A stretch of 64,000 nt of DNA. It comes from Morinoia aosen (lineage: Eukaryota; Arthropoda; Malacostraca; Amphipoda; Talitridae). How positions within the stretch are numbered: position 1 is the stretch's first letter; each line of letters starts with the position of its first letter. This document shows positions 5,677-43,700 of this stretch, in pieces. The notes beneath the pieces were generated by a model. It was not told where the DNA came from. It did not search any database and worked only from the letters and a program-made list of their open reading frames with translations. The stretch spans positions 35,254,139-35,318,138 of the forward strand of contig CM059563.1 in the NCBI GenBank assembly GCA_030386875.1. The letters run 5' to 3'. The translations under genes were made by a program, and so were the position numbers.

Positions 5677-5719
5677 GGGGTGTGTTTGATTTGATTTTGT
5701 TATTCAATCGTTCAATTAG

Positions 5720-8261: not shown

Positions 8262-8660
8262 ACTCCCGGCTTCAGAGGGGGTTTCCCCGCCTCGAAGTCG
8301 GGGTTTGAGGTATTCGCTGATTGTTGCCAGGAGTGCTTAAAGTTTTACTTTGGGATCCAAAGTAGTAGTCCAAAATGGACTATTGGTCTGCGTAACTTAA
8401 GTCTATTCTTATAGGTTATTTAAGGGCCCTGGAGTATAGGGCAAATTAAAGAGAAAATAACTACGCAAATGAGACCCAAGCTCCGAAGAGCTCGGGCCGC
8501 CGCCCGACTTTGTTCTACCCAACAACGGGGAATTGGAAAAAAACCTAAAATCTTAATCCCTCGAAAGAAAACTCAAAAGATAGAGGAAAGACCAGTTGGG
8601 TATTTCAACGGTACCACCACGAGAAGGTGCCGGGTCAGCTGGATACCTGCTCGTGAGTAG
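8262..8660 (-). other. Probable 5' UTR of the LINE
   Basis: Precedes the ORF1 start codon on the minus strand. GC-richer than the AT-rich sequence to its right. No second start codon continues the ORF1 frame, and the element's 5' boundary cannot be fixed by eye. Confidence 0.45.
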
Positions 8661-10732: not shown

Positions 10733-13700
10733 CTGCAAATAGTAGCTTAGATTAGATTGTTAGTTTGAGCCTCACTATCCGCCCCAAAGGCGATCCAAGG
10801 AGAGGAAAGAAGAAGGCAGCATTTAGTATGGAGATAAGGGAACGAGGAATCAATGCAGGAAGGGCATAGAAACAGTAAGTTGAGAAAGAAGTTCATGAAA
10901 TAAAATCAAAGTTGAAGAAGAAAGCAGTAGGTGTGGAAGAACAGTATAGCAGTGAAACGAAAGAAGATGGTCCTTAACAAAGTGAACATTTTATAACAAA
11001 AAGAAGGCCTAACAAATTCTCAGCTCAGGGCATCTCAATTTCCCCCTGGAAGCACTAATACCCATAAATGCAATAGTTGTTCTCCTCTAAGGGCCGACGC
11101 TGTACATCTTATGTAATAATTCCCTTATTTGAATCCATTTTAGTTTTCCTTGCAGTCAATGACATCATCCAAAAAACAGCAATGAAAATCACTTCTGCGC
11201 ACATTGCATCTGTATATTCTACGTGGCATTGAAGCCTCACATGGCAGAGACAACACTTAAATTGATAACTTATTCACATTGCGAATTTTTGCTCCAACGT
11301 AGGATACAATATCCACGTAAATTATTCTTTCATGAACCTAAGAATTCTTGACCTAACCTAATACCACTGATTATCTCTTCGAAGTTCCCAACACAAAATA
11401 CTTGAAACTAAACAAAATTCTAACCTTCGGCAACATATTTTACACCACTTTGACTGCCATAATTCATGAAATTGAAGTAACCGCTAAGTCACGTATGATA
11501 CTAGGAAAGCCCCTACCTACACAGCATTCAAAAGCACCCTTAAATCTTACATTCTCTGACACATGCAAAATAAAACTAAAACAAACGATAGAACTAAATT
11601 AAGAAAACCAGACAATAAATCATTTCTAAACTTAATCCACTGGCATGAATAACGTGCAGGACAAAACTTCTACGCTAAAGTCATGAAAAAATCACCTAAT
11701 TAATAAACAGCCAAAAAGTCAACTTCTTTCTCGCAGCTTAATATTAGCATACTTACTTGTCTCGTACGCTTAACTAAATTTAAGATAAAACTGCACGTAC
11801 ATGGACTATTTTTAATGCTATACTTCGGAATTTGTTCCCTTGCTGGAAGGCTGCCAGAAATCTCAAAGCGCACTTGGCTCACAATGCTAATTTTGATGAC
11901 AGTTAGATACTAGGTATATAATTGTTTCACTCGCAACTATCTACAACTCATAGTAAATGAATCTTCCCCGCCTCTTTTGCAAACAAAATTAGTCAACTTT
12001 CTTTAGCTCTAAATTCCAGAACAAGAACTTTATCTCTACATATCAAGCTAGAAGCTCTATTCTAGATTAGATTATTTGTTAGTTTAAGCCTCCCTATCCG
12101 CAACAAAGGCTATCCAAAGAGAGGAAGGAAGAAGACACCATTTAGTATGGAGTTAAGGAAACGCGAAATCTAAGCAGAAAGGACACAGAAACAGAAAGCT
12201 GAGAAAGGAGATCATGAAACTAGAAAAAGTTGAAGAAGAAAGTAGTAGGTGATGAAAAACAGGACAGCAGTGAACCGCAAAAAAAATGGTCCGTAACAAA
12301 AAAAAAACCTATTCTATTTTAACAAAAAGAAAGCCTACCTAACCTTTAGCTCGGGCCCTTACATAGTTCCCCAAGGAGCGCTAATTCCCATAGATACAAT
12401 AGTTGTATCCCCTTGAGGGGAGAAGCTCTATTGTAATTCAATCAAGAATCACATTTATCTTCGACCAACCAAGCACCTGTCATGCCCAAAACTGACATCA
12501 GCAGTGCATACCTTTAGTGTCGTCCAAGTCGAACTTGAAATAGGCAACATTAATTTTGATCAAAAATCCCATTATTTTATTTTCGACCAATAGAGCAACT
12601 AACATGTCCGAAACTGACACCAGCAGCGCATACCTTTGGTGTCGTCCACGTTGAACTTGAAATAGGCGACATTAATAAGACCAGAGTCTCGGTGGAGATA
12701 GAGCATGTCCGGGTAAAGACGGGCCAAGTGCAGCACGTACTCCATGAGGCCCAGCACTCCCAGCTGTACAGTGACCATCTTGCGGAAGGTCCAGTAGTCC
12801 GTGGCATTAGGAAATGCTGCCAGTGCCCACTCGCTCAGCATTGTGCGTGGCACCATGCCGCTCTGCACCTCCTTTACGATGTCACGCAGCACCTACACGC
12901 CACACAACATACATAACTCAGATTTTCAACGATAGAAATGTTGAATGCATGCCCAGCTTCCAACAAATGTGCAAGTGAAATATTGATCCTTTAATGTATG
13001 TAAAAATTAATCTATTAAAATTGTGAACTGTAAATGAAGTTATTTCAACAAATGTTAATGTGTGAGCTCAATTAAATCAGGCTAGTTCGAGTCAAATGAC
13101 ATTAGAACCTCCCATATAAGCTTAACGTGGCGTAGTAAATACGTGAAGTGCTGTAAGATGCCAGCTCTTCGCTGACTAACAGCATGTCGCCGTATGATAT
13201 AAAGGTTGATATTTGTGCATGGTGCTTATAATTACAACAAAGTATTTCGTTCGGGACACAATACAGAATTACAGTAAGTCCGAGAACGCTTTTGTTTGCA
13301 TCTTATCAGTCTCAGATCAAAGAAAAGAAGAGCATTGCCTCGAAAGGCTCCAATATTTTAGCTATTATACTTCAACCAGATTCTTGCTGCATGATTCTAT
13401 ACTTCGTACCTCTAGAAGGGTATCAATCAATTCCAGAAAGATATTCAGGGTGGGGTGGAATGTTGAAGGGACTTAGCTCAGATTCCGCTCATGTCACACA
13501 CACTAATACAACACAGTAGTTCATCATTGACGCTACACCATTAAAGTGATTACTTTGGTCAGGCAGGACACTTGGCGAGAGAATGCCTATAGGTAAGAGG
13601 ATCGCGACTCAGTTAGCCAAGTGGTTGAGAAAGACATTCATTCCATGAGACGGCTGTGGGTCAGCTTGACATAACCGATACAAAGGAGGCATAAGACCAC

Positions 13701-16700
13701 CTCCATCCGGCGACTGCAGCAATTTGATGTGGTCCACCTTCCAATTTGGTTCCACCTTCCACAAATCAAAACGGTTCACAACGTCTCATTAATTCTGCCA
13801 AAGGTCCCTCAACGCTGCTTAATACGAAGCTAATTATTAAGGCTAGTGACTGATAGGTTCAGGATCATCGCTATAGTGGCGGCAGCACGCTTTGCCTCAA
13901 GGTCAGCTCTCTCATTTTCTGAGGCACCAACGTGTTCAGGCACCCAGATCTTGATACGACTGGTGTTTAGCAGAAGGCGCATCAGCCTCCCAAAGATTTC
14001 AACAACTAGAGGGGGGTACTGGCATTACCGTAGATAGTATCTATGGCACTCTTGGAGTCTGTAAATACGGCATAGTGGTGTGGACAAATCTACACTGAAT
14101 CAATGGCACTGCAAATACGGTAATGTGGTGCAGATAAATCGACACTGAATCTATGGTACTGTAAATAAGGTAGAATGGTGTGGAAAAATCTACACTGACC
14201 TGATGAGATGCTTGTGCTCCTCTAGCCTGGACGCCTGCCAGCCGCTCGTAGTAGCGAGTGATGGGAGTATCAGGCTCCAGGTGTTTGACCTGACACCTCT
14301 CACGGTAGATGTCCATGAGGCTCAGCGAGCTTGGGTTGTCTTCTACCAGCCGGTTCTGTGGAGAGAACGCCACCACTCTGCTCACGTACAGGTGGATGAA
14401 GCGGCGACTTGACTCCTGTAACAGATGTAAATTATTTAAGAATGCCTTATACATTTACTCAGCAATATAGAAGCTTTCCTAAGTCATAGATGAGAACTTC
14501 CCATGAATACAGAACTTTCTAGTGCCCAGAAAATGTGGGTGGCAGCACAAACTCCAAGACACACCAGACACGTCCCTCAACACGAAGAATCATTTCCGAA
14601 AAGCTACAAGAAATATACTCTGTACAAATCCCACAATTTACACTTGAATGCCTTTTTACTCCTAACTGTGTTTATATTTTACAGCTACTCTCGGTTATTG
14701 AGTCATGAAAAGAATTATTTCCGGGGGTTAAATAAAAACAAAACATTCAAGCAAACAGTCATATTTACATCAATTCTCTTCAACTAAGTGTTCAACAATG
14801 GCACCCGCGCGAGTGCAGCTCATGAACAATACAGTCAACAACAACATTATGAACAACACTGAATATAATTATAAAAAAGAATAAAAATCTTTGCTTCACT
14901 AGGTGACGGAGCAAAAATTAGGCAATCTAGCATCTTAAAGCTAAAAGCCCCTTACATGGAACACGACACCAAATATTACGAACTCGTGCAAAAATCCGCT
15001 GATTGCAATGGTTGAACGAGATGTGGATGGACAGGAAAGGAAGGCATTTGAGGTCATGGGTATTTAAATTCAGCAAAAGTAATCGCAATGCAGAACAAAG
15101 TAATTCAAAGGTAATTAGAGAAAAAGGCATGTCAAATAAGGACATACAGTAATGTCTGCTTAGCTGGTTAGCTGCAAACCTTTTAAGATGCGCACTTGTT
15201 TTTGTGACTGTTCATCGAAAGTTGTACAACTTCAGGGGCAGTTATCATACATCACTATCTTTACAAATGTTTTATCAACAGCACAAACCTTTTAATTACC
15301 TTTTTACTGCTGAAAATATCGAGTGAAACCCAGCAGAGTAACAAAAGAAGAAAGGAGAATGTTCAAATGTTGCACCTAGAAAATCAAAAAAAAAATAAAC
15401 GATGTAAAGAGTTTAGCGGTGAAAGCTGGTTTTTAGAATGTAACATCACATAATATTGAAGAAACGTTGGAGAGCCATGAAATTTAATTAACAAATGAAG
15501 AGTTGATGGAGGTTTACAGCAACATCGCAGAAAATTTTGCTCCTCAAGAGTATGTTGAGCCTTTTCTCAATGATCAAAATAACAATGTGACAGCAGAAAA
15601 AGTATTTGCCTGAATTGCTGGGTTCAGCAGGAAAAACTCAGTGAGAAAGTATCAGAACTAGAATTTGAAAAAAAGGGTAACTAGCTTCAGAGATTCTATT
15701 CATGCACTTGTTAATTATTATGAAGATAAATAAACATGCGAGCTTCATGTTGTGATTGTTGTTGTAACTTGTAAGATTTATAATTTTATTTCTTAAACAT
15801 AAACAAGTTTTTTAAAAACAACAAACTTTTGTGGGAATAACGCATTCTTTTTTTTTCATTGGTAAAATATTACAATTTAAGTAAGTTTTGTATCCAACTT
15901 AGGCAATTATACGAATTACTAAATACGATAATGTTTACAATAAATTAAAAACTCCATCAAACTAAAATTATTGTATTACCATACATGTTTATCTTTTGAA
16001 GTTAATGAGGCATTTTGATTAATTATTAGATGTATAGAAACCCTTACCTTAGGTATTGCATTTATTTCTAAAAATGAGATTTTGTTTGCTACCGAATATC
16101 TGGTTAGCTGCTTGCATCGTTAGCTGCGCTAGAAAATTGGTACGTATCTCCGCAGTTAAGCAGGTAATACTTTATTATGTAGGTCATAACAGAGAAGAGA
16201 CCAGGAGGATTGCAGTCCGGGCACGACGGTACCTTCTGCTTCTTGCCATATCAGTTTATAACAACATAAGGACATTTTATGGAATTTATAACAACGGGAG
16301 AAGAGAGCAGAACTGAGGCAGTCCGGACACGACGCTACCTTCTGCTTCGTGTAGAAGACGTTGAGCATCCTGAAGAGCTGCTGCAGGCGCTCCTCCCTGC
16401 GCGACTCGCTGAGGCTGGAGTCGCTGACCACGAGGTAGGGGTACACACGGCCGTTGTGCCCCCGGATGTGCAAGCGGCGGGGGGCAGACAGGTGCTTGTG
16501 CACAATGTCCACTTTCGGCAGGAAGCGCGCGATGCGGATGTAGTAGCGCGAGTTCTGCTCACCCAACAATGGCGCAGTGAAATACATTTGAGCAATGTAG
16601 AACTCAGGGAGGTGTCGAGTTGCATTGCAACTTAGCTACAAATAATCACCATGTGGTCATTTCATACATTTCAACTCTTATTCAAGATGTACTCAATTCA

Positions 16701-19700
16701 AACTATTTCAAATCGTGCACCTGTTATAGAATGGGACACTCATTGTTTCTCCCATTCGTCACAGTACAAGAACATCTCGCGGTTTAGCAACCGGGAGTTA
16801 AGAAGGTCACAGAGGTTGGCGTAGGAAAAACTGAGGTGAGGGAGAAACGAAAGAAAAACCTGACGACTGAAACATTTTGAGAAGAAAGGACTATTCTTGC
16901 CCGTAAATAAAACTGATGAATATTTTGTCACACGTTCCGGCAATTGCACTTCAGCACCGTTGAGTCGTAGGCTATGTAAACTTGAACTTGATTTGGGTTT
17001 GTAAAAAGTTATATATTCTACTGTTAAAACAAGCGAATTATACTAGTATTGAAATAGTACTAATTCTTTCTCAAGTACAAGGCTTGCCATTATTATGCAC
17101 GTTAATGCAATTGCAAAATATACAAGACCTTGACAATTTGATAGCTAAATAAATTTTCGTGAAGTTGAACTGTGAACATTTTCATTTACACGAGATGCGT
17201 AGAAGAAGGTACATAAGCCATACTGCGAAAAAGCTAACAGGACGCGGGATAATTAATCCCCAAGAAATAATAGACACTTGCCTCAGGCAGGTCTGCTCAA
17301 AACTTTCAATAAATGCACTAAGTAATCAGAACCCGAACACTACCAAATAAAATGTGCCCCGTACCAAATTTGCACGCTCTGAAAAAGAAATGAATGTTTT
17401 CATGCAGCACGAAGAACAGATACTGAAAGAACTAGGTATGCATTGCACTGAAGGATTGAGAGTCAATATAGAGATAAGCCTCGGCCACGAGCAGCAAGAA
17501 TGAAGACGCGCACCTTAGGCATGAGACACTCCCCAGGCAGCTCCACCTCCGCAGTTTGTACACTGAAGTTGCTCAGGAACCTGCACTTGTCTTCGATCAG
17601 GAACCACCTGAAATGAACCACACTATACAACAAGTGAAAATCATACACTGCGGTAAATGGGTACCATTCTACGACACAAAATATAACCACAGAACTCAGC
17701 CAGATAAAACCCTCATTCAGTTCATTTTACTGAAAGACTTGAAGGCTACAGGAAGAAACAGCCACGGCAATGACCGAGTGCAGCACTTACTGAGATAAAC
17801 CACTTCACTAGTTTGCTGTACTGAATTGGTGCCCCCAACGGGTTATGATGGTAAGTACTTATCATGTGCCAAGCATAGTTTATACTTGAAGAGGTAAAAG
17901 AAAATTGTAATTAACTAGCAATTCCTTTTCAGATCAAGTACAGAAGCCACTCAGTACAACATTTCACACACACTAACACCACGCAGTAGTTCATCAATAA
18001 CACATCATTACTTTGGTAGGAGCTTGACGCGAGCCTCGAGGATTTTGATCCATTTCTTAAGCTTGTGGATGAGGTTGTGAAGCTTCACAGACCCAGGCTG
18101 GGCAAAGTCAAAGTCTGCAGTGAACTGCCCTTTGAGCTTATGGAAGACGGGGTCCTGCACCGTGGCCTGCGCTCGTCTAGCTAGGGACTCGGAGCCTGTG
18201 CTGGTGTGGTGTGTTGTTGAGCTGCTGTTGTTACTGCTGCTACTGTTGCTGCTGTTGTTACCGCTGCTGTTGGTATTTGTGTTGCCACAGCCACTCACGC
18301 CCACCCCTGAGCTGTTTAGGTTCTCTGAGGAGGTGCATAGCGTCAGGTCAATATATTTGCATGGAAGAAGCTCTTCATAAATCAATAATGGACTCTAGTA
18401 TTTCACAGAGCATTTAGCTTAGCTTATTTATTCATTCTCAGAATCATGTTATAATTGACTCAAAAAAAGCAAAGACACCCAATGAAAGAAACTATTCGTC
18501 GATGCTAATGGTCTCATCACCAACGTTACACGGATATTTGTAACTTCAAGGAAATGTGTGACTATTCTTTCAACATTTTACTAGCATGCAGCTCATTGGT
18601 AGAAGTGCATGCAATTCTGCTATGGTAAGCCCACCGTCGAGCGTATGGTGCTATCATGGCTTGCTCAATGCACTCATTGGCAATCCAACTACAACGATGT
18701 AACACATAAGATCAAGCCGGGCATTCACACCACAATTTTTTTAGTGTTTCACATCAAAATGAATGTAAATTCAATATATAAATCCTTTAAGTAGAGTGAC
18801 GAAGTGAGTTTCAAGGAGATACAATTTCATTGTTTTTTAGATAGCATATGTTTAACGATTGCCTCTCATTCTTCAGCTGCGATATGATTGTTGAAATCCA
18901 AAAACCATTTGTACTTCATACGACATTGTGGAACCAACACAAATATTGTATTGGAAACTGGTGAAATGGTTACAAAACAATAGCAGCACAAATATTAAAC
19001 TTGCAACTGATGACACATTACAGTATAAAATGGTTACAAAACAGCAGCTGAGCTGAAGAGAGCCTCACCTATGCCCAGTCCAAAAGTGGCGACCAGTTTC
19101 TTGACAAAGGACTGAGTGTGTGGCGTGATGACGGCTTCCGACACTGCAGCTGAGTTCTCGAAAGCTACAGAGTAGCACTTGGCGAGAGCCTGCCGCAACT
19201 GTCGGAGAACTTCTTCATACCAGTTCTCTCTGAACCATGTCATCTGTAACACCAACGCACGTATCATGAGCCACAACGCTAACAAAACGTGAGTTATGAA
19301 CATGTCTCTTTGGAAAACAATAAAAAGCAATCCTTGCCAATACAGAACTATGCACACTTTTCCACATGCACGCTTTTTCCAAAACATCTAATCCAGTTAC
19401 AAAACCTTGAATCAAAGCACTTCCAAAGTACAAGAGTGTAAAAGTCTAAATAAAGAATGGAATAATTTCGAATGATGTGTTCAACAACCTCCTCTCTTCG
19501 AAAGTCAAGAAAAATTCCAACGTGAATTGACAGAGCAACAGAGCAACCAACGTGAATATTTCCACACTTTCATCTTGCTAAAAGATATTCAAATTCATTT
19601 TCCAATGTATCATTACACAATACATGAATTTCAAGCAAAAGATGTAAAAGCCATATTCAGTAACACTGTTTATCTCGTAAATTTCTGGGGAACCAATACT

Positions 19701-22700
19701 AGCAACAGCAAATGAGTAAAGCAACGAAGCCTCCATCATTAGGTCTTGGTCCCAATCCTACTGGCTCGGTTGTGATGAAAAAATGAGTAAAATTTTCTGA
19801 CGCCCTCGAGAGAGAGACGAGTTTACTGATGGTAGGCAATTGTTAGGTACTTTTGACCTGGTCGACGATGGCCTCGAGAGAGAGACGAGTTTACTGATGG
19901 TAAGCAATTGTTAGGTACTTTTGACCTGGTCGACGATGCCCTCGAGAGAGAGACGAGTTTACTGATGGTAGGCAATTGTTAGGTACTTTTGACCTGGTCG
20001 ACGATGCCCTCGAGAGAGAGACGAGTTTACTGATGGTGGGCAATTGTTAGGTACTATTGACCTGGTCGACGATGCCCTCGAGAGAGAGACGAGTTTACTG
20101 ATGGTAGGCAATTGTTAGGTACTTTTGACCTGGTCGACGATGCCCTCGAGAGAGAGACGAGTTTACTGATGGTAGGCAATTGTTAGGTACTTTTGACCTG
20201 GTCGACGATGCCCTCGAGAGAGAGACGAGTTTACTGATGGTAGGCAATTGTTAGGTACTATTGACCTGGTCGACGATGCCCTCGAGAGAGAGACGAGTTT
20301 ACTGATGGTAGGCAATTGTTAGGTACTATTGACCTGGTCGACGATGCCCTCGAGAGAGAGACGAGTTTACTGATGGTAGGCAATTGTTAGGTACTTTTGA
20401 CCTGGTCGACGATGCCCTCGAGAGAGAGACGAGTTTACTGATGGTAGGCAATTGTTAGGTACTATTGACCTGGTCGACGATGCCCCCGAGAGAGAGACGA
20501 GTTTACTGATGGTAGGCAATTGTTAGGTACTTTTGACCTGGTCGACGATGCCCTCGAGAGAGAGACGAGTTTACTGATGGTAGGCAATTGTTAGGTACTT
20601 TTGACCTGGTCGACGATGCCCTCGAGAGAGAGACGAGTTTACTGATGGTGGGCAATTGTTAGGTACTATTGACCTGGTCGACGATGCCCTCGAGACAGAG
20701 ACGAGTTTACTGATGGTAGGCAATTGTTAGGTACTTTTGACCTGGTCGACGATGCCCTCGAGAGAGAGACGAGTTTACTGATGGTAGGCAATTGTTAGGT
20801 ACTTTTGACCTGGTCGACGATGCCCTCGAGAGAGAGACGAGTTTACTGATGGTAGGCAATTGTTAGGTACTATTGACCTGGTCGACGATGCCCTCGAGAG
20901 AGAGACGAGTTTACTGATGGTAGGCAATTGTTAGGTACTTTTGACCTGGTCGACGATGCCCTCGAGAGAGAGACGTGTTTACTGATGGTAGGCAATTGTT
21001 AGGTACTATTGACCTGGTCGACGATGCCCTCGAGACAGAGACGAGTTTACTGATGGTAGGCAATTGTTAGGTACTTTTGACCTGGTCGACGATGCCCTCG
21101 AGACAGAGACGAGTTTACTGATGGTAGGCAATTGTTAGGTACTTTTGACCTGGTCGACGATGCCCTCGAGAGAGAGACGAGTTTACTGATGGTAGGCAAT
21201 TGTTAGGTACTATTGACCTGGTCGACGATGCCCTCGAGAGAAAGACGAGTTTACTGATGGTAGGCAATTGTTAGGTACTTTTGACCTGGTCGACGATGCC
21301 CTCGAGAGAGAGACGAGTTTACTGATGGTAGGCAATTGTTAGGTACTATTGACCTGGTCGACGATGCCCTCGAGAGAGAGACGAGTTTACTGATGGTAGG
21401 CAATTGTTAGGTACTTTTGACCTGGTCGACGATGCCCTCGAGAGAGAGACGAGTTTACTGATGGTAGGCAATTGTTGGGTTCTTTTGACCTGGTCGACGA
21501 TGCCCTCGAGAGAGAGACGAGTTTACTGATGGTAGGCAATTGTTAGGTACTATTGACCTGGTCGACGATGCCCCCGAGAGAGAGACGAGTTTACTGATGG
21601 TAGGCAATTGTTAGGTACTTTTGACCTGGTCGACGATGCCCTCGAGAGAGAGACGAGTTTACTGATGGTAGGCAATTGTTAGGTTCTATTGACCTGGTCG
21701 ACGATGCCCCCGAGAGAGACACGAGTTTACTGATGGTAGGCAATTGTTAGGTACTTTTGACCTGGTCGACGATGCCCTCGAGAGAGAGACGAGTTTACTG
21801 ATGGTAGGCAATTGTTAGGTACTATTGACCTGGTCGACGATGCCCTCGAGAGAGAGACGAGTTTACTGATGGTAGGCAATTGTTAGGTACTTTTGACCTG
21901 GTCGACGATGCCCTCGAGAGAGAGACGAGTTTACTGATGGTAGGCAATTGTTAGGTTCTTTTGACCTGGTCGACGATGCCCTCGAGAGAGAGACGAGTTT
22001 ACTGATGGTAGGCAATTGTTAGGTACTTTTGACCTGGTCGACGATGCCCTCGAGAGAGAGACGAGTTTACTGATGGTAGGCAATTGTTAGGTACTATTGA
22101 CCTGGTCGACGATGCCCTCGAGAGAGAGACGAGTTTACTGATGGTAGGCAATTGTTAGGTACTATTGACCTGGTCGACGATGCCCTCGAGAGAGAGACGA
22201 GTTTACTGATGGTAGGCAATTGTTAGGAACTATTGACATGGTCGACGATGCCCTCGAGAGAGAGACGAGTTTACTGATGGTAGGCAATTGTTAGGTACTA
22301 TTGACCTGGTCGACGATGCCCTCGAGAGAGAGACGAGTTTACTGATGGTAGGCAATTGTTAGGTACTATTGACCTGGTCGACGATGCCCTCGAGAGAGAG
22401 ACGAGTTTACTGATGGTAGGCAATTGTTAGGTACTATTGACCTGGTCGACGATGCCCTCGAGAGAGAGACGAGTTTACTGATGGTAGGCAATTGTTAGGT
22501 ACTTTTGACCTGGTCGACGATGCCCCCGAGAGAGAGACGAGTTTACTGATGGTAGGCAATTGTTAGGTACTTTTGACCCGGTCGACGATGCCCTCGAGAG
22601 AGAGACGAGTTTACTGATGGTAGGCAATTGTTAGGTACTATTGACCTGGTCGACGATGCCCTCGAGAGAGAGACGAGTTTACTGATGGTAGGCAATTGTT

Positions 22701-25700
22701 AGGTTCTATTGACCTGGTCGACGATGCCCTCGAGAGAGAGACGAGTTTACTGATGGTAGGCAATTGTTAGGTACTATTGACCTGGTCGACGATGCCCTCG
22801 AGAGAGAGACGAGTTTACTGATGGTAGGCAATTGTTAGGTACTATTGACCTGGTCGACGATGCCCTCGAGAGAGAGACGAGTTTACTGATGGTAGGCAAT
22901 TGTTAGGTACTTTTGACCTGGTCGACGATGCCCTCGAGAGAGAGACGAGTTTACTGATGGTAGGCAATTGTTAGGTACTTTTGACCTGGTCGACGATGCC
23001 CTCGAGAGAGAGACGAGTTTACTGATGGTAGGCAATTGTTAGGTACTTTTGACCTGGTCGACGATGCCCTCGAGAGAGAGACGAGTTTACTGATGGTAGG
23101 CAATTGTTAGGTACTATTGACCTGGTCGACGATGCCCTCGAGAGAGAGACGAGTTTACTGATGGTAGGCAATTGTTAGGTACTATTGACCTGGTCGACGA
23201 TGCCCTCGAGATAGAGACGAGTTTACTGATTGTAAGCATTTGTTAGGTACTATTGACCTGGTCGACGATGCCCTCGAGAGAAACGAGGACGGTGGGGTGA
23301 TAGTCGCGCTGGATTTGCAGGATGCGGGAGCAGTGGCGCATGGGTTCCGTAGCCCTGATCGTCTCCCCGGACTGCTGCTGGCCGGGCTGCGTACTGGCCT
23401 GCGACGCGCCCGACGGGTCTGGTCGACAGGCATCATTAATTACTCACACCAATAATTATTATTTTATTTCATTCATTAATGATTAATCATTGATTAATTA
23501 ATTGATTAATAATTAATCATTGGTTATTTCATTGATTGATAATTATTGATTAATTAATTGGATCATTGATATCAATGACTATTAGATAATTAATAATCGA
23601 TTGATTACTTGAGTAATTGGCATCAATTATTATTGATGTCTGACCGGCTTCGGCTGTACACTAGCAATTTTTAATGCATCGCTTCATCACTGACCATAAT
23701 CAGTGACACCAATCATAAGAGAGACACAAAAGAAGGCAAGGGAAAATCCTTTGGTCTCGCAACTGCACCCATTGTTCACTTAAGCTCCGAGAAGAGTGCC
23801 GATACAAGATTATAAGATTATAAGTTAGTTTAAGCCTTCCTAACCGCTGCAAAAATAGAGCGTATCAAAGAGAGGAAGGAGGAAGGCACCATTTAGTATG
23901 GAGATAAGAAAATGAGGAATCTATGCTGAAGGGGCATAGAAACAGTAAGATGAGAAAGAAGTTCATGAAATAAGATAAAAGTTGAAGAAGAAAGTCAGAG
24001 GTGCTGAAAAACAGGACAGTAGTGAACCGAAAAAAGGTGGTCCTTAACATAACAAAAAACATTTCATTTCAACAAAAAGAAGGCCTACCTCACTCTCAGC
24101 TCTGGCCCTCACATTTTTCCCCTGTGAGCGCTAATTCCCATAGATACAATAGTTGTATCCCCCTGAGGGGGAGTGCCGATACAACAAAATGCCCAATTTG
24201 ACTACAGAAGGACCCTCTTGTCCAGAAGCCAATAGACCAGAGCAATCATCTCCAACAGAACAGAACAATTGTCATCTGCGATAGACCAGAGCAACATCCA
24301 TCAGAATGTTCCATTATCTCTCACGTGAAGCGCAGCCATTGTACACCTCTTTCATTGCCCACCATTTAGAACTCCTCACAGTTGCCTCTCAGAAGACAGT
24401 GTATACAGATTTCTCTCAGCTAACTCTGATAAGGTAGGGCAGAAGTACGGAGGCTAGTCTCGTGTTTCTCTACTTGAAAAATTTATACTACACTCAATTA
24501 ACAATAAATTTAACTGCACGGACTATCTTTCAATGAGCAATACGGAGCATATCCACTGAACAGAAAGGATTGATCAATTGGAATTTCGCACTTGAACTTT
24601 ACAAGTTCTCCAGTAACTTCTCCAAACGTGAAAATTGTGGGAAAAGAAATATATTATTATTATTTTAGGGTTTTGAAAAGGAATATAGGAAGGAATGAAA
24701 TCGTACCTCTCTTGAAGCGGCCTCGCTGCTCAATGCGGAGGGTGAGGTACAGGGTGCGGACTGGCAGGTACACTGCCTGAGGGTACAGCTTGCCCACATT
24801 ATTCAGCAAGTTCAGGATAACCTGCAACAAGACACATTTTATTATGCCAGACTCCTCAACTCTCTAGAAATAAACAGCACATGAACCCCCATGACTGGAC
24901 ACAACATGAGCGTTATCGTCACCACTACACGCCCTAGCACATGCACACCAATGTCTGGACATAACACGACCACGCACGTCACCACTACACGCCCTAGCAC
25001 ATTCACACCAATGTCTGGACACAACACGACCACGCACGTCACCACAGCGCAGGCGACAGACGCATGTCACCCCAGCACGGGCGACAGACGCACGTCAACC
25101 CAGCACGAGCGACAGACGCACGTCACCCCAGCACGGGCGACAGACGCACGTCACCCAGCACGGGCGACAGACGCACGTCACCACAGCAAGGGCGACAGAC
25201 GCACGTCATCCCAGCACGGGCGACAGACGCACGTCATCCCAGCACGGGCGACAGACGCACGTCACCCCAGCACGGGCGACAGACGCACGTCACCCCAGCA
25301 CGGGCGACAGACGCACGTCACCCAGCACGGGCGACAGACGCACGTCACCACAGCAAGGGCGACAGACGCACGTCATCCCAGCACGGGCGACAGACGCACG
25401 CCATCCCAGCACGGGCGACAGACGCACGTCATCCCAGCACGGGCGACAGACGCACGTCACCACAGCACGGGCGACAGACGCACGTCACCACAGCACGGGC
25501 GACAGACGCACGTCACCACAGCACGGGCGACAGACGCACGTCACCACAGCACGGGCGACAGACGTACGTCACCACAGCACGGGCGACAGACGCATGTCAC
25601 CCCAGCACGGGCGACAGACGCATGTCACCACAGCACGGGCGACAGACGCAGGTCACCCCAGCACGGGCGACAGACGCACGTCACCCCAGCACGGGCGACA

Positions 25701-28700
25701 GACGCACGTCACCTCAGCACGGGCGACAGACGCACGTCACCACAGCACGGGCGACAGACGCACGTCACCACAGCACGGGCGACAGACGCACCTTGCCCTC
25801 TCGCCTGACGAGGCACGTGAGGAGCTGCGGGATCCAGGCGAGCCACTGCAGCGGGGGCACCCCACACCCATACTTGTCCAGGGCGTCCGTCAGCTGACAT
25901 CCGCTCACAGGCTCGAAGCTCAGCAGCCAAAACACCTTCGCGATGTACTTCCTGGCCTTCACTTCGTTCTCACACCTGCTAACACAAAGTAGTCGTCACG
26001 TGATGTGCCTCCACATCACTTTGTACAACATAAATATAGAACATGAAGTGTGAGGCAGGCTACTTTATGCGCGAGTACTAAGTAATCTGTGATTAATTGC
26101 TTACAAGAGGTAGGCAGTGACTGAAGCAAGTAGTGGCAGAGGCAAACGTACAATCTGCGTCAAGCAGCTATCAAATGCAACATAATAGCATTGTGGCAGA
26201 TAGATATCTGACATTGAAACGAATCATATAACTGAGCTTTATTCCTTTCAACTAAAAGGTAAATAATTATTTCTTTTTTTAATGAATAATAAAATATTCT
26301 ACATTTTAGTACTCTAGCTATTCACAGCGGTTGGACTCAAGCTTTTAGCATGAATGTGCTCATGCCGTTATCGAGAGAAAGTGCAGTAATTATTGTACAT
26401 CAGTTAGTTGTAAGAATTCCTAGCAACAACCAAGGTTTTCTCAAAAAGCGAAAAACAGGAACCCTTCACTATGAACTGTAGAAAAAGGGGAATCTATGCA
26501 TAAAACGTGTTCCCACACAGGCACATAGAAAAAGTAAGTTAAGAAGGGAAAGGAATAAAAAAGAAATAAGAGACAAAAACTCAAAAAAAAACAACGCGAG
26601 TACAAAAGATAGAAGTTCCGAAGGTCTACCTGGAGCTGACATAACCAAACAGCATCTCATCCAGGGTCACCAGTCTCCATAGCATAATATAGGACAAACT
26701 TTACTAACATTGATTTATTAATTCCCTATCGTACGTCCCCAGAGAGGAACTGAAGGCACACCATATTTCCTGCTAAAGTTAGCTACTGAAGACTCGATGC
26801 ACATTTGTGTGCACCGTGGAACTCAAATCATTTCCAGAAAACGGACGGACGGTAGTCTTGAAAAAAAAAAATCAAATGCAAACTTCCACTCACTACAAAT
26901 TCAAATCTCTGGTTTGAATTGAAACAACTACCTCTGAGAGGGGATAATCGGAAATTTATCTAATTTTAAAGAAATCTATGACTTATCATTCATTCCAGTT
27001 GAAAACAATCAGAACTTCCTGCAAGATTTTAGCCAGAACTTCCTGTAAGGTTGTGGTCAAAACTTCTTATAAAATTTTAGCAAATAAAACGTGCCAAGTG
27101 TCAAACTGCCAAGATCTGCCTCAAAAATAGAAAATGAACTGCATCAACCTACACGGTCGCATTCGATGGTGCGGACCACAGCAGGCATATGAACTGCATA
27201 GCAAATCAGCCTTAAATTCTGCCGTAGCTGCCATGAACAAAATTCAACATTCACTCATATACTCGAAATATGATGATGCAGGGAAAATTAAAGCATAACT
27301 GATCTCGACCCAATCATTGTGGATTGAGTTAGCAGTTATAATGATGCCAAACTACATAGGCAAAGCACTAGTTAGATCCCACAAAATTTGTTGTTCTTGA
27401 AAAGCAAAGTTTTGAAATAAGAAAATAAGACCTAAATGTAGGACGTTCGTTTCAGAGAAAGTACACTTCACGACTCGTTAATGAGATACAAACAAGACTA
27501 TAATGACTTAAATCTGTAATAAGAGTTTCACCACAGCACAAGATAAAGAACATTTTAATCGCGGGTTCCAACGGGTAGGATATATTTATTTGCAATCCAC
27601 ATCTGGAATATTTAGGTTAGGTAAATATTGAATCCCGTCATTTTTTGACGGGCCGTATACATTAGGAAAGAATAATGACCGTGCAGCATGGAGGAAGCAG
27701 ATGATAGCCTGGGCTGCAGAGTTGAGGTTGCTGGGGTCCTTCACAAAGGCCGTCTCGATGAAGTCACCCCAGAGTGCCCAGCCCTTCAGGAGCATTTCGT
27801 GGTACTGCACCCCGGCGCTGAACGACTTGTTCGCCTCTTCTGCGCGACCTGCACAGCACCACCTCTCTTTTAGCCACGAACACCAAGAATGATCGAAGTA
27901 TGACGCAACCTGAATACAATAACAAATGACTCAGGCTTCACATACTCGCAGACAGCGATGCTGTGACACGCATCTGGAAACAGTACGCCATGCGCCGCTC
28001 GAATATACACGTAAAATTTAATAACTTCCTTGGGAGAGGAATAGGAGCTATAATAAAGCCTGACCTCAGAGATGCATAACCCTTGCATAATCTAATCTGA
28101 TGCAAGTACAAGCCTTGCTTGTACTAACTCATTCTGTACATTCAAAAACAGAGTATTTCTTAGCTAGTTAAACTAAGAACTGCTAACTTTGCTAAAATAT
28201 ACAGAGCGCACAATTATGGGAGCATACAACTTCATGTCCCTTCATTGGAAGGTAGGCTATATATTGTATATTTAGTATTTTTAAACCCGCTATTATAGAA
28301 ATATTTCAGAGTATCTCGGTAAGACGAATGAAGCAGAAGGCAGAGTTGACACAGATACAGAGAAGCAGGCGTGTGCCGTGAGAGCACAAACTCAAGTGTG
28401 TGCAAGCTGCGGCACTCACCGAGGTGTGACAGGAATAGTCCTTTCAATGCGTAGAATTCTGAAGTCATTTCTTTAGTGAAGAATTTCAAGTTGGTAGAAT
28501 CAATAACTTCCAAGCCCTGCAAAGAAACAAAAAGTTAGATAGAGCTGAGTACCTGTTTAACAGCAGTTTAATGGTCTAATTAGTCTGAACAAATTAAAGC
28601 AGGCAGTCAGAGCAATGAAGTGTTCACCACAATTAAAACTAGTGCACTCCCAACCTTTCTGGAGCAAAAATGTAGAATCCTATTTATTCCGGTGGCTTCG

Positions 28701-31700: not shown

Positions 31701-34700
31701 AAAGTGTCTGGAGAAGTCCAAAAAAGGTGCGCGGGGTAGCCCTGCGACTCAATTTCATACCAATGCAAATAAAATTTGTCCGTAGAATACACACATCAAA
31801 CACGCGTTACAACACGCACCTGTTGCGCGGCTTGCAGGAAGGGCAGATGAATGTGCGACACGATGCTAGGCAGGCGTTTCCACTCCCTGATGCAGAGAGC
31901 CGATGTCAGCTCAACGATTTTGTCCACTGCGGTAGTGGCCGTCTGGTCGTCCACCACACAGATGGCCAGGTAGCCTTTGTATAGGTTAACTTTCCACTGG
32001 TACTCTCTGGAAATTATACACTTGAATTAACTATAAGAGATATATAGCCCAATGGATCCAAAATATCTTTTATGTGTATTTTAGCACGTTAAATGCTAAA
32101 TGTTAAACTACAGTTCAATTTTCAACTCAAATTAGAATTAATTTTTGGGATCAATTATGGAAATAACGAACACTAGATAGGTCGCCCCTACATTTAGTTT
32201 TCACTAACAATTTATCGAAATTGAGTTAGTGACTGCTGGTCGGTCTGTAGCATCATGAAAATCTCCTCAGTGACCACCGGTGGGTCACGTGGCACCTAAA
32301 GAGTTCATATGAAATATGCATGATAAATTTTCTCCACCACATTATTAGTTTTTAATATTCAATGGTGTTTTCAAAGTAGCTGAGCAAGTTGAATGGGCTG
32401 ATAGCAAAACATTCTTTAGTCCATGTTTAATAAATTCAGTTATTCTTGAACTGCCACAAACCTACTTTCTGCAGGCTATCACAATCGTTTTGCACAAGCT
32501 GATGTTAACTGAAAGGTTGATGTGAGAACTTCTCGCTTAGCCTTGTACCTTCAGTCACAGCAGCGGCACCAAAATCCAAATTTAAGAAGCAAGAAAAAAA
32601 AGAGACAAACACGACTCACTGATCACGCATGCTTAGTGAACTAAACGAGAGGGTATCATCACAATGAAAGCCAATCACTTGGACCCTCAAGCCAGGACGG
32701 CTAAAGGGGTAAGTTAATCAGACGACATCAGGCACTGAGGCAACAAAGATACTACGAGGATGTTGCAGTGTCGGCAGTGTCATGTATTGAAGTCAATTGG
32801 TTTGCTAACTTATGAAAAAGTTGGTTTTCAAGACCTAAACCAATTTGCTATTAAATTATATTGTTTGTAGGTGAATGCGATACAAAATCACACTCATATT
32901 CATGGACAAAAGAAAATGAACACAAAACTTATTTTAAACGCGAATTGTATTACCCAACCCGTTTCCATTAGGGGACCCACTGGCAGATGCTCTCATGAGT
33001 TTATGAGAAGTAAAATATCAATTGTAAGCCCATACGGTTGTTCCACAACAGCACAAAACACTTGTCGAAAAACAGGACAGCAGTGAACCTTTAAAGGGGG
33101 CCCTTAACATAACGAAACAAAACATTTTAACTCAATAGAAAGAAAGCCTACCTAACTCTCAGATCAGGCCCTTACACATTTCCTCCTTGAAGTGCTAATT
33201 CCTATTGATACAATAGCTGTATCCCCCTGAAGGGTAATTCCCATAGGTACAAGAGTTGTATCCCCCTTAGGGGTATCTCCCATAAATACAAAAGTTGTGT
33301 TGCCTGAAGGACGAGATCCAAATGAAAGCATCGTCAGATTTCACTTCAGGTTACCACAAGAAGAGAGTAAAGCAGCCCTGCGGTGATCACACCACGCAGA
33401 GGCAATTTGCACGTCACACTACCTAAGAACGAGCGTAAAAGGCAGTACCTGGGGTACGAGGCGCGCTCCAGGGCAGTGAGAGCGTCCCTCATCGCAGTCC
33501 AGTCGGCAACACGCCACGCGCTGTCCAGTACCAGTTGGGGCAGGCCGTTGTTCGGATCCGAGCCAAAGTCGCGCACAATTTCCCACTGGTTCAGCTCCTT
33601 CGAGCATCTGAGCACAACGCTCATCATTAGTGCACCATTGACTTAAATCATGTAGCAAAATAAGTTTTCCACCTCCTACAAATTAACACTTTAGACAGTG
33701 GCAAGTGAAACTGAAGTTTAATATATTGAGTTCAAATTTGAAGTAAATTGTTGTAAGCAATGGTGAAAATACCTAACATTAACTGGATCGTGTTTTCATT
33801 TAGTTTTGATTCAGTTTATTTTTCAATTGAGTTTGTGACTACTGATTGGTCAGCAGCATAACGAAAACTCCCTGTCATCAAATATGACCAACGTTGCAGT
33901 CGAAGTGTTGACCAAGCGGGTGAGTACAAACAGCATCGTACCAATAACAAATAATGTGGTGTCGAGTACTTTTTGCCTAACTCTTCTGTCTCTTTGCATA
34001 AAAAATATACAGCACCTCTCCCGGTAGAAGCTATCCACCGAAATGATAATGCAGCTCGGTGTCTCGCAACAGAAATGCTAGTTCATGTTCATGGAAAGCA
34101 TCAAATCGTGCAGCTATGAGACAGCCTAACACTGGTATCACCATATCATCAGAACTTCTGAACAGCACACCAAGCATCGAAGTGGAGATACCTACACTTA
34201 GCCAGATGCAAAATTTCAACACATACTCAAACATAATTCGTGAAGAATAGCAAGACAAAATATTTAATCCTACTTAACCTTCATCAAAGGAAGTACCCCA
34301 CTCAGAAGTCATTAAAAATATTTAATTGAACTTTGAATGCAACCTTTGCAGGAAGTAAGGAACAGCATACAAGACGAAATACAAGTAAGAGCTGTGCTAT
34401 CCGCAGGACAACAACACATATAAAGTTATGCAACACACAACAAAATACAAGAGTGGCACAGCTAAGCCAGCACAAACACACAACAATCAAGGTCTGCACA
34501 GCTAAGCCAGCACAAACACACAACAATCAAGGTCTGCACAGCTAACCCAGGCACAAACACACAACAATCAAGGTCTGCACAGCTAACCCAGGCACAAACA
34601 CACAACAATCAAGGTCTGCACAGCTAACCCAGGCACAAACACACAACAATCAAGGTCTGCACAGCCCACCCAGGCACAAACACACAACAATCAAGGTCTG

Positions 34701-37700
34701 CACAGCTAACCCAGGCACAAACACAACAAACAAGGTCTGCACAGCTAACCCAGGCCCAAACACACAACAATTAAGGTCTGCACAGCTAACCCAGGCACAA
34801 ACACACAACAATCAAGAACTGCACAGCTAAGCCAGGCAGAAACACACAACAATCAAGGTCTGCACAGCTAACCCAGGCACAAACACACAACAATCAAGGT
34901 CTGCACAGCTAACCCAGGCCCAAACACACAACAATCAAGGACTGCACAGCTAAGCCAGGCACAAACACACACAATCAAGGTCTGCACAGCTAACCCAGGC
35001 CCAAACACACAACAATCAAGGACTGCACAGCTAAGCCAGGCACAAACACACAACAATCAAGGTCTGCACACCTAAGCCAGGCACAAACACACAACATTAC
35101 AATTCAGGGCTGCACAGCTGCGTGAGATCACCTGAGCCACTGGCGCTCCCAGAGCTTGACCTCAGCATTGTGGCGAGGGGGCAGAGCCCTGATGGCCATG
35201 TCGGTACTGCCTTTGTTCATGGCCACTTCATACGCAGCCACCGCTTGCTCCATGAAGCCATGTTGCTCAAATGTCACAGCCTGAAAATTAGAAAATGCAA
35301 AAATTAACTAATGCGAGAGAATGGATGATTGATGGATTATAAGAAAGTTCTAGCCTCTCCTAGCGTTAACCACAACAAAGATGTTCAAAGAGAGGAAGAA
35401 TGAAGGCATCATTTAGTATGGAGTTGAGGGAATGCAGAATCTACGCACAAGGAGCATAAAAACATTAAGCCAAGAAAGAGGTTAATGAAACGAGATAACA
35501 GTTGAAGAGGAAAGTAAGTGCTGAAAAACAGGACAGCAGTGAGCCGAGAATAAAAAAGTCTGTACCAAAACAAAAACCTATTCTATTTCAACAGAAAGAA
35601 GGCCTACCCAACCCTTAGCTTGGGACCTTGCATAATTCCTTTGGGAGTGTTGGCTCCCAGGGATACAATAGTAGTATCTCCTTAAGTGGGGGTGAGAGAA
35701 TGAAATAAAAAATTCTCAACACTGCTCTACCCCGTTAACGTGAAACAATTAACATAAAGTGGCAATAAAAAACTTTGTGGCTTCATGAAACTTCTTCAAA
35801 AACTTGCGGCATAATGCATAAGAGTTATCAAGGAAGACTCAACCTCACGATACAGGTTTGAAGAAGATAAATTAAACTGGAACTTCACAGTTATTAAGCC
35901 TGAATCAGTGTTTTTTCTGGCACATCATAACAGAATAAAAACACATTCATAATTTCATCAATTCAGACTGTCCGCGCCTTTTAAAATTGACATTATTCTA
36001 AGACCCAAGACAGGAATGGAGGAATTTCTCTGCTCAGGGACTGTTGTTGCTTCTCGCTGAGCACACTCCAGATGCGCGGGAAGAGCTGCTTCCACACCCA
36101 CTCTGCCAAGCCTGTGTCCATGTGGCAGAGCTGGGCCGTGCCCGCCAGAAAATGGTTCGTGAACGGAGAAGAGGAATAACTATATCTCATCTAAGATACA
36201 CAGATTGAAAAATAAACAATTTAATAAGAGGAACAATTGAATCTTATCTAGGATACACAGGGTGAACATTCAACAACTTAACAAGAGGAACAATTGAATC
36301 TTATGTAGGATACACAGGGTGAACATTTAACAACTTAACAAGAGGAACAATTGAATCTTATGTAGGATACACAGGGTGAACATTTAACAACTTAACAAGA
36401 GGAACAATTGAATCTTATCTAGTATACACAGGATGAACAATGAGCAATTTAACAAGAGGAACAATTCACGCACAACAGCCAAAAGCACTCTAACACCGGC
36501 ACTTACGAGCTTGGTCTCTGGGTAGTGGGCATACGTCTGCCATAGTCCGGCCCACAGATCGTCCTCTCGCATCTGGGAGTATAGATCGCTCAGGCCCACC
36601 ATCGCTTCCTGTCAAATTCAATACTGCATAGATTAACACTTAAGCCACAATTGGTAAAACTAGGGTTCAATATTTAACTCAAATTTAATGCCAATTGTTG
36701 CAAGCAATTTTGTAAATACCAAAAATTATTAATTAAATCTTGCTTTCTTTTAGCTTTGATCAAGTACTTAGGAAAATTGAGTTGGTGACTACTGGTTGGT
36801 AGTATGCATCACAGGGTCACCAGCATTATGGAAATCCCCTCCGTTCTCACCAGTGGGCAAGTTGCGATCAAAGTGTTTAAACATAGTAAAAACTGGCGTG
36901 CTTAACAGTACAATACACAAGCCACAGTTCTGAAAACACTAAAATAACCTCTAATTATTGTTAATTTCGCTCAAATGCAATGCAGTGATAGCTTGAGACA
37001 TTCTATTCATCATTAATGGTTTAAAGAGAAAAATAAGTAATGGTAGCAGCAGCAGTAGAGAAATAATTTCTATCGTTTGAGAAATTGGATGCCTCGATTA
37101 GTTTAAATTGAAGGGAATTTGAGCAGGAGCAATAATGAAAATAGACCAGCTTTTAAAGGTGTGACGGATGAATCCCACACTCCACAAAAAAGTTTTCCTG
37201 AGTAAAACAAAAACAGCAAAAAATAACTAAGAAAACTAACCGTGAAGACTTGGCAAGTAGGAGAGCTGAAAAAACCAAAGGTGTCCTCAGAGCAAAGCGT
37301 AAATTAGAGCAAAAATGAGTGGATGAAAAACAACCACAAAAATTCTAGAAACTTAGCAAATAGAAGAGTTGAAAAAAAAACGAGTGGCTGACCTGCTGCA
37401 GTGTGAGAAGTTGGTCGGGATAGTCCAAGTCCCTCTTGAGGGAGCCAGATGGAGGTGACCCTTGACTGGCATGCATGATGGCCTCCAGCTGGAGGCTCAT
37501 GCGGTGCCAGAGGTTGTGTCCCTTGCCCAGGTACTGAAGCAAGAAGGGCCGCATGGACACGCTAGGCTGACACAAACATAAAGCTTCCACGAAAGTTTGG
37601 ATGGCCGACGGATGGCTCTCCTTCTGAACGATGTGCGCGCCAGATGACAGGAATGGAGGAATTTCTCTGCTCAGGGACTGTTGTTGCTTCTCGCTGAGCA

Positions 37701-40700: not shown

Positions 40701-43700
40701 GAATACAATCAAGGGGAACCAATTTTGACTACCTAATTCAGCGGACAGCGATTCGATTATGACATTACCTAATTCAGATAGTTTTAGATTTCTGAAAATT
40801 AAAAAACTGGAAATAAGAGTATGTTTCATTAACCCGTCTCCACGTGGTCGACCTACCGGGAGGTTTGAAGAAAATGGGTCAACTGTGCAACTTACTGTAC
40901 ATTCATTTTTCAAGTTAGAAGTTACATTGGGGGTTCATTGTAAAGAGAGAGAGTTGTTCTTTCTGTCAGTGGGGGGAAAAAATGCTGCTACCCCAACAAA
41001 AATCTACGAAATTTGAGTTTTTATTTCGGTAAAATACAAAAAACAGAAATCAGAAAATCACTGGCCATTTTTTATTTATTGCACTTTCATGTTTTTTTAT
41101 GATGCATTTTCATAGATTCTGAGTTGCTGAATCTTGTGGTATGTGAATTTTTTTTTCAGGTCTAATAGTTCCGGAGTTGTGTGCATTATATGTAAAACAC
41201 AGTTTTTATTTTTTAGTTCATTTTGTGTATAGGCTGTTATCAAGCAGTTTCATTGCTTGTAAAGAGTTTGATATGCATGGAGCTTTTCCTCCCGAATACA
41301 ATGGTGGTATTATTTTTTGCCTAGGAGTAAATCTGTGGATTTGGACTCCTATTTTTGGAACAAAAAACATAAAAAAATAAAAATGATGGCGACCTTCTAA
41401 GAGGCAGAGTGTGTGCTGGTATGCCTCAGCTACACTGCTGGCCTTCCAAGAGGTTGTGCAGCGCCGGGAGCTACACTCCAGACTGAGCAGAAGAATTCAT
41501 ACAGATTTGAGCTTGTTACCTCTCCTTCCCTGTTCCCACCTAATTTTACCTTACACCAATGAATAGCGCTCAACGAGACGCTTAAGACCATATATGGCAA
41601 CCCTAGGTTTGCTGATGTGAAACATGCACTAGCTTTGCCGACCTTCTAAGAGTCCAGGACGTGGCGACGGGTTAAAAATCAGTACGCTAATTGTTCTGTA
41701 ACTGGGCACTCGCATACGAGGTGAGTTTATGGTGAATCATCTTGGGTTATTCCCTCACATCGGTAGCAGACAGAAAATCTGCAGTATGGTTTGATATACC
41801 GGCACAGTTGTAGTGGGGCATTGAGTGCAGCACTAAAACACAAGGCGCTCTAGAAGTTGTAGTGAAAGTGATCCGTGTTTTTGATGCTCAAAATAACGGT
41901 ACTTTAACCACAAGAAATGCAAATAACTGTATTCGTTTTCTCTGTGTTTGCGTGGTGTAACATTCACAAGAATTAATCACCACATGAATAAGACATGGAC
42001 GTCGTCTTCCATACTTAAAATGAAGCGCCGGTCAGCTTATTTCTCCACCAAACTGCTTATATAGATTAGATTAGATCATTAGTTAGTTTACGCATCCCTA
42101 TACGCAACAAAGGCGATCCAAAGAGAGGAAGAAGGTATGAACTCCATTCCCTTAACTCCATTTAGTATAGAGTTAAGGGAACGCGGAATCTATGCAGAGG
42201 GGCATAGAAACAGTAAGTTGAAAAAGAAGTTTATGGAACAAGACAAAGTATAAGAAAGTAGTGGATATTGAAAAACAGGACATCAGCAAACCAAGAAAAA
42301 ATGATCATTAACAAGAATAAGATTTACGGTAACAACAAAACAGGTCTACCTAACCTTCAACACGGAACCTCACATTTTCCCCTGGGATTATGCCACTAAC
42401 GCATCGAACATCAGAACAATACGTAAAGAAGCGCTCTCTGTGGCCATTATTGATTTCCTCAACATTGAAGGATTATTTCCTCAACATTGAAGTGCTTACA
42501 GAGATATTGTTCAGCGTAAATACTATCAAGAATATATATCATATTATATAAGTATGTGTAAGACTTCCTAGCTACAACAAAGACGATCTCCAAAGAGCAA
42601 AAAGGAGGCATCATTTGATTCGGCCTGTAGAAAATGAGGTGCGTTCCCACAGAGGAGACTCAGAGCACAGAAATAGCTTGTTCAGTTAGAAGGGAAAGAA
42701 AATACAAAGAAGAGACTAGATTAAATCAGTTTAGGCCTCCCAACCACAACAAAGGTGTTCAAGAGAAGAAGGTTGAAGGACCCATTGATATGGTTTTAAG
42801 GGAATGGAAATCTACGCACAAGGTGAGTTCCTATACAAGATCCTTTAGGGAACAGTAGCATAACTGGTCAGTAGCAGAGGGAAGCCAACATAATTAGATC
42901 AAACATCAACAAGATTTCAAAGGCATCAACCCATCAGCACACTACATCAATTACTTGAGATATCAGGTCCAAGCGGCGCCATGTGGGAAGCCGTCATTTC
43001 ATCAACAAGACATCAAAGAAATGCATTAATCTATCAGTACACTAAGGCAATTACTTGAGATATCAGGTCCGATGGGCGTCAAGTGGTCCCGCGTAATTTT
43101 CTGCAGCACTTTCATGACCGACGCCATCAGCTTGTCCAGGTACTGGGTGGAGTGCTGTGCGACAGCTCGCATCACCATCAGGGCGGGGTACAGCGTCAAC
43201 ACGGAGCCGGGAGGGCCGCGGTCATAGTTATTGAGAGTGTCCTGCACTAATTTTGTCGCTCGTGACATCAGCTCCTCAAGATCATCCACCCCAAAAGTGG
43301 TGAACAGGGTTGAGAGGAGAGGATGAAGCAGACGGATGATGCGAGGGTTGGAACAAGCGCAGCAGCACAACAACCCGCGGTATAAGCCTTTCACGGCGGA
43401 CAGCATTTGTTCTCGTTTCAGTTTCCCCACCAGGAAAGTAAGCAGCTCCAAACCAGAGCACACATTTCCCTGGCTGTACTGGGGAGAATCCACGCCTTGG
43501 AAGAGCTTGTCGAGCCAACCGAGCTTGGGGTCGGCATTTGGCCAGACGACGAGAGCGCGTTTGAGCAGGAGAGAGCAACGTCTGGATAGCAACTCGCTGG
43601 CAGTGGCAGCCGGCAATGGAGGGCTGGCATTGGGCAGCAGCGCTGAGGTGGCCGTGCTTGTCTCGTGCACTTGACACGGCAGCCGTACGAGGAAGTACAC

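Follow-up and report, generated by a model that had tools for sequence, protein, structure and literature searches.

Most of one intron of the TRRAP/Nipped-A gene of the amphipod Morinoia aosen is occupied by a 68-bp tandem array, the unit of which carries the end of the preceding exon together with its splice donor. The array lies on the minus strand of a stretch of 64,000 nt (contig CM059563.1 of assembly GCA_030386875.1, positions 35,254,139 to 35,318,138; hereafter the window), in intron N between the exons termed N and O. Judging from the sequence, we put at roughly 70% the probability that the array is a minisatellite seeded by the donor, in which splicing would proceed essentially from the first donor and the decoy donors would be mostly silent. 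The array looks like a tolerated repeat of variable length rather than a proven switch. Donor-anchored variable number tandem repeats (VNTRs) are already known; new are the unit carrying exon sequence and the many donor-anchored arrays within one gene.

The array in intron N and its donors

The gene is TRRAP/Nipped-A as judged from matches to human TRRAP chains, in agreement with an earlier note on this DNA: exon C matched with E=1e-117 and the joined exons M-N-O with E=8e-62, and no match was obtained when exon N by itself was searched against the PDB. We take TRRAP to have a role in SAGA/TIP60. Our minus-strand model comprises 22 exons (A to U plus B2) encoding 3,371 residues without a stop. 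At the junction of exons N and O the spliced protein aligned to human TRRAP ungapped and without extra residues, and the first donor is thus the conserved one. Exon N had been numbered exon 16, which is incorrect, as it is the 15th exon found in the window and at least five further exons lie upstream.

The array starts about 23 nt within exon N, crosses the donor of this exon and ends 557-580 nt upstream of the acceptor of intron N (Table 1). Tandem Repeats Finder (TRF) reported a period of 68, 51.2 copies, 97% matches, 0% indels and a score of 6603. Counting from the authentic donor, we found 51 donor cores with all 50 spacings being exactly 68, confirming an array of 51 x 68 bp without net indel, as well as the strong homogenization and the exon-like context described earlier. 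The decoys proposed in the earlier note are indeed present, although they number 50 rather than 51, one of the cores being the authentic donor. All 50 retain the GT. The donor GACCAG/GTCAA had been assigned to every unit; CAG/GTCAA is found in 48 of the 50 decoys, and the two others have CGG and CAT before the GT. The authentic 9-mer, CAGGTCAAT, is shared by 23 decoys, while 27 differ from it, and 26 of the 50 have an A at +6. Taking all 51 donors together, the 9-mers are CAGGTCAAA (25), CAGGTCAAT (24, the authentic donor counted), CGGGTCAAA (1) and CATGTCAAT (1). The exon-derived portion of the unit is 22 nt long when ungapped and reaches the approximately 30 nt formerly suggested only if a 2-nt CT insertion is permitted. 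Reading through the first donor gives VNST followed by a stop, exactly the four codons that had been predicted.

In intron N, 47 additional GT sites have scores equal to or above that of the intron's own donor, versus 9.5 in shuffled sequences; the remaining 20 introns combined contain 67 such sites, versus about 79 in shuffles. Among the matches listed, the 68-bp unit was found solely at two TRRAP loci on the same contig (C8) rather than at many loci as a dispersed satellite would be, and these counts of unit matches are lower bounds because common words were skipped in the search. The 9-mer GTCGACCAG closes the intron before exon N (23410-23427, minus strand) and closes exon N too (23255-23266, minus strand), rendering the acceptor and donor contexts alike. 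Scans of the window with Rfam (gathering scores) and for tRNAs returned no matches.

A second copy of the gene

A second, intact copy of the gene, on the opposite strand at a distance of about 2.1 Mb (in a 69-Mb contig of the 1.99-Gb genome), also contains the stretch comprising exon N and the array. All 22 exons are present there, stop-free and at 97.5-100% identity. The coding sequences of the two copies differ at 35 of 10,114 nt, with 33 synonymous and 2 non-synonymous codons. Compared over about 79 kb, the copies share blocks of 95.8-99.8% identity totalling approximately 58 kb; one 1.4-kb block is displaced from the common order, and two stretches of about 8 kb each have no long match. 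The number of units varies freely between the copies: the 68-bp array has 51 units in the window and 72 in the second copy, the 28-bp array 27 versus 59, the 19-bp array 23 versus 31, the 41-bp array 16 versus 14, and the 57-bp array 5.2 versus 4.2, the small arrays A, S and T being the same in both.

The decoys of the second copy have decayed as well. Its array has 70 of 71 spacings equal to 68 and one of 70, and its 72 donors comprise CAGGTCAAT (32), CATGTCAAT (27), CAGGTCAAA (10) and others (3). The G at -1 is replaced by T in 27 of the 71 decoys, and 40 of the 71 differ from the authentic 9-mer; one of these 40, GTCAGT, may be a stronger donor. The commonest variant of each array falls within the donor 9-mer (A at +6 in the window, T at -1 in the second copy), for which we estimate a positional chance of roughly 3 in 68; selection for weaker decoys is suggestive only. 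The arrays of the two copies have turned over largely independently, and variants predicted to weaken the donor have spread in both against an unchanging coding sequence. The two versions of exon N can be told apart by a T/C difference at position 137, and in the second copy this exon differs at a third codon position where it agrees with the repeat unit; either the ancestral state or sequence exchanged between the exon and the array could account for this.

The second copy is probably the other haplotype, and a true duplication is possible; the variation between 51 and 72 units is a difference between two gene copies that are probably alleles. Many matches to kinesin and SNF2 are likewise paired, the partners having equal or nearly equal scores and lying 0.1 to a few Mb from each other on one contig (for example, C16:45757691 and 47110390, C3:20912622 and 22748945, C13:30216562 and 31957223), and represent either uncollapsed haplotypes or recent duplications. 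Owing to these near-identical pairs, we consider that the assembly probably contains both haplotypes in places.

First donor and decoys

We propose that a tandem duplication over the junction of exon N with its intron would have placed a copy of the exon end and donor inside the intron, and that unequal exchange would have expanded and homogenized it to 51 and 72 units. Such a duplication would leave the upstream exon and its donor intact, making the extra intronic copies cheap if the first donor is used. Exon O would be joined essentially to the first donor, the sole donor next to the complete exon. At most, multiples of 68 nt would rarely be retained and meet a stop after four codons, and such RNA would presumably be removed or decay.

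This reading is favored by the conservation of the N-O junction with human TRRAP, by the difference between 51 and 72 units in intact copies having 33 synonymous against 2 non-synonymous codons, by the departure of 27 of 50 and 40 of 71 decoys from the authentic 9-mer, and by the confinement of the unit to the two TRRAP loci among the matches listed. Furthermore, exon end and donor lie within a copied stretch in introns B2, R and T as well as in N. There is also a precedent with a dominant first donor. As described by De Roeck et al. (2018; PMC5954066), the VNTR of human ABCA7 lies in intron 18, its opening bases are the GT donor of exon 18, and its 25-bp units number from 12 to about 427; one unit is retained at a low level of about 2% independently of length, whereas skipping of the next exon depends on length. 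Like this VNTR, the 68-bp array lies directly at the upstream exon, takes in its donor and has a donor-like GT site in each unit. Unlike it, for which an intron-only unit and one array are described, the array studied here has exon sequence in the unit and is accompanied by many donor-anchored arrays. The potato RNA-dependent RNA polymerase gene (PMC4974935) similarly underwent a tandem duplication across an exon-intron boundary that copied splice signals. However, that acceptor-side duplication produced a new intron, whereas in TRRAP the donor side of a pre-existing intron grew. Among the top matches listed in the open-access literature, the nearest cases were ABCA7, UBC and this potato gene, and no report of arrays in TRRAP/Nipped-A introns was found.

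Several points weigh against silent decoys. As 23 of the 50 decoys equal the authentic 9-mer and 47 sites score no lower than the intron's own donor, leakage may be above what we assume. The authentic donor itself is not strong, with a leave-one-out score of 5.2 (the 22 donors span 0.7-10.0). Moreover, the copies may be paralogues instead of alleles, and a spare copy would relax the constraint on one of them. Weak decoy leakage or a length effect may occur. By analogy with ABCA7, rare retention of 68n nt with an early stop would be expected, and the effect to look for would be skipping of exon O, which at 175 nt would be out of frame.

Such an effect of length could act without decoy use, the skipping of exon O growing with the array. 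De Roeck et al. describe an increase of ABCA7 exon 19 skipping with VNTR length (PMC5954066), and loss of exon O, not being a multiple of 3, would shift the frame. Coding constraint nevertheless persists in both copies, at 51 and at 72 units, and we regard a length effect of this kind as unlikely.

Of the two readings offered in the earlier note, a tolerated accident is favored over a dose-sensitive brake on expression. As a brake, the decoys would capture U1 by their number, so that longer arrays would give more stop-containing, degraded transcripts and less TRRAP. In favor of this, all decoy products would carry the VNST-stop and nearly half of the window decoys equal the authentic 9-mer. 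Yet the number of units differs between intact copies, the decoys are not preserved, with the G at -1 lost in 27 of 71 in the second copy, and single-unit retention in ABCA7 is independent of array length (PMC5954066). Drift in array length and decay of the decoys, under continued constraint on the protein, speak against a finely adjusted brake. Some braking could exist, though the observations do not call for it, and we consider it quite improbable.

It is still harder to maintain that the array is removed recursively, with the CCAG/GT of each unit serving as both acceptor and donor and stepwise excision restoring the donor to yield a normal mRNA. As an acceptor, CCAG/GT scores 3.3 and exceeds 4 of the 22 authentic acceptors, inspection of the sequence identified a branch-like CCTAAC and a pyrimidine run in every unit, and arrays of dual-specific sites are reported to be used in human UBC (PMC10809524). 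The score is, however, weak within the authentic range of -1.3 to 12.8, and the AG is lost in 27 of the 71 decoys of the second copy. The UBC arrays resemble the 68-bp array as tandem repeats with AG/GT in each unit (here in 48 of 50 decoys); they differ in consisting of coding monomers with sites shown to be used both ways, whereas the array here is intronic and its sites are candidates for such use. An array of the UBC type would also have a coding unit, an intron length divisible by the unit length and repeats at each intron end; here a unit of 68 cannot be divided by 3, the intron measures 4,014 nt and the array stops short of the acceptor. A further candidate, in-frame 15-nt micro-exons (GIVDQ) separated by 53-nt mini-introns, was rejected, the required acceptor ending in GAG, scoring -1.0 and beating only 1 of 22 authentic acceptors. 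Least probable of all is an assembly artefact: long near-identical arrays are difficult to assemble and the unit number here comes from the assembly, but two assembled loci have the array at the same position with different common variants (A at +6 in 26 of 50, T at -1 in 27 of 71).

Arrays at other donors of the gene

Donor-anchored repeats at many introns of one gene are unusual, and most of the substantial arrays of TRRAP lie at donors (Table 1), a point missed by the earlier note. Ten of 13 merged TRF arrays start between -45 and +50 nt from a donor, compared with 1.6 expected if each array is placed randomly within its own intron (P about 4e-11). This set comprises arrays with a TRF score of at least 150 in 28 introns (21 between modelled exons plus 7 flanking), the limits of position and score having been chosen after inspecting the window, and intron L is filled by its array, making the position there uninformative. 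Among the ten are the 23-24 bp x 120 and 27 bp x 35 arrays upstream of the window. The three remaining arrays lie in the interior of intron B, in the interior of n4 and 40 nt upstream of the acceptor of intron U. The seven added introns (n1-n5, U, V) provide a partly independent check of this count: two of the seven have a large donor array, and one array lies 40 nt from an acceptor. Below the score limit, and thus excluded, were arrays in intron F (score 117, at +152) and intron M (score about 126, at a distance of 44 nt to its acceptor).

Table 1. Positions of the array, the exons at its ends, the second gene copy and further donor-associated repeats (coordinates of the window unless a contig is given)
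Feature	Position	Strand	Program
68-bp tandem array, 51.2 copies, with exon end and donor	19802..23281	-	TRF
TRRAP exon N, final 22-30 nt present in all units	23258..23418	-	
Authentic donor CAG/GTCAAT	23252..23260 (first G at 23257)	-	
Intron N, 4,014 nt, largely array	19244..23257	-	
TRRAP exon O, length 175 nt (indivisible by 3), starts at 19243	19069..19243	-	
Second, intact copy of TRRAP gene part, inverted (L010-L015)	G000 C8:33131137-33180541		
28-bp array x 27, begins at exon L donor; 60-bp repeats onward to 24876	25032..25791	-	TRF
41-bp array x 16, begins +37 of exon E donor	34456..35096	-	TRF
57-bp array x 5, begins +42 of exon D donor	36169..36466	-	TRF
19-bp array x 23, begins +9 of exon B donor	53482..53911	-	TRF
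58-bp array x 2.7, begins +32 of exon A donor	55385..55538	-	TRF
50-bp array x 2.8, begins +3 of exon S donor	14059..14198	-	TRF
122-bp duplication including about 42 nt of exon T and donor	12454..12676	-	
Diverged duplication of exon R end and donor, copy at about +95	16240..16350	-	
Duplication of exon B2 end and donor, copy at about +86	42950..43069	-	
Arrays at or near donors of upstream introns, 64001-84000 (L018, L019): 23-24 bp x 120; 27 bp x 35 and 33 bp x 25	70108-67288, 79133-77298		

In a near-copy test, the 60 nt around each donor were compared with the next 200 nt at a score of at least 28, with a mirrored comparison at acceptors; for shuffled 300-nt targets the 99th percentile of the score was 22.7 and its highest value 26. 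Near-copies were found at the donors of 9 of 21 introns, two of them (introns C and O) weak, and at none of the 21 acceptors (Fisher P 0.0013). In a sliding map of about 39.5 kb of intron, 12 of the 21 introns had a duplicated segment located at the donor or spanning it, and 12 more segments lay at other places.

A test for a general donor bias in this genome did not find one: in myosin, SNF2 and kinesin genes, near-copies were present at 6 of 57 donors and 6 of 61 acceptors (P 1.0), and random interior windows of these loci reach the near-copy score in 6.5%. TRF arrays occurred at 3 of the 57 donors (loci L044, L051 and L055) and at 4 of the 61 acceptors, all four in kinesin genes. Single donor-anchored arrays do exist outside TRRAP, at L044 (62 bp x 24, at +26) and L055 (25 bp x 4, at the donor). 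The comparison started from 77 exon matches (33 myosin, 27 SNF2, 17 kinesin), with unclear splice sites dropped to leave the 57 donors and 61 acceptors. Myosin was represented by 30 loci of 79 matches plus one region, with one double-counted exon dropped, SNF2 by multi-exon genes selected from 57 matches, and kinesin by 17 of 20 exons picked from 126 matches before the flanks were viewed; exon ends were placed by a scoring matrix, and some sites may be wrong. TRRAP exceeds the three families both in near-copies (9/21 versus 6/57, P 0.003) and in TRF arrays (10/28 versus 3/57, P 0.0006). Since the sets differ in exon definition and locus length, this excess is a lead and not proof of TRRAP being special. 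We tentatively entertain, as possible rather than probable, that tandem arrays arise preferentially at the splice donors of TRRAP, as hot spots where a donor-directed process not acting at acceptors, perhaps tied, for example, to germline transcription or U1 occupancy, would repeatedly seed tandem duplications across exon-intron junctions.

The window also contains other elements. Long open frames at 39012-40238 in intron B2 belong to a block (38757-40167, minus strand) whose matching 1.4-kb block in the second copy (99.4%) sits in intron B instead; given the different intron, the block may be mobile. By eye, long overlapping open frames at 2339-8336 (minus strand) resemble a non-long-terminal-repeat retrotransposon, and a frame at 50281-50972 (minus strand) in intron B is Gag-like with a zinc-knuckle-like motif. 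Coding exon P includes a low-complexity run rich in Ser, Asn and Gly (18212-18324, minus strand), presumably absent from the human protein.

The two copies of the array constitute a natural experiment in donor choice, with 51 and 72 near-identical donors in an exon-like context within one essential gene of one genome. The two array lengths make the rules of first-donor use directly testable. The concentration of arrays at TRRAP donors and not acceptors, with no donor excess in the three other families, raises the question of how minisatellites are born. If the donors of this gene are indeed hot spots, much of its intron length would be donor-derived repeat, and dozens of decoys would be ignored in each transcript.

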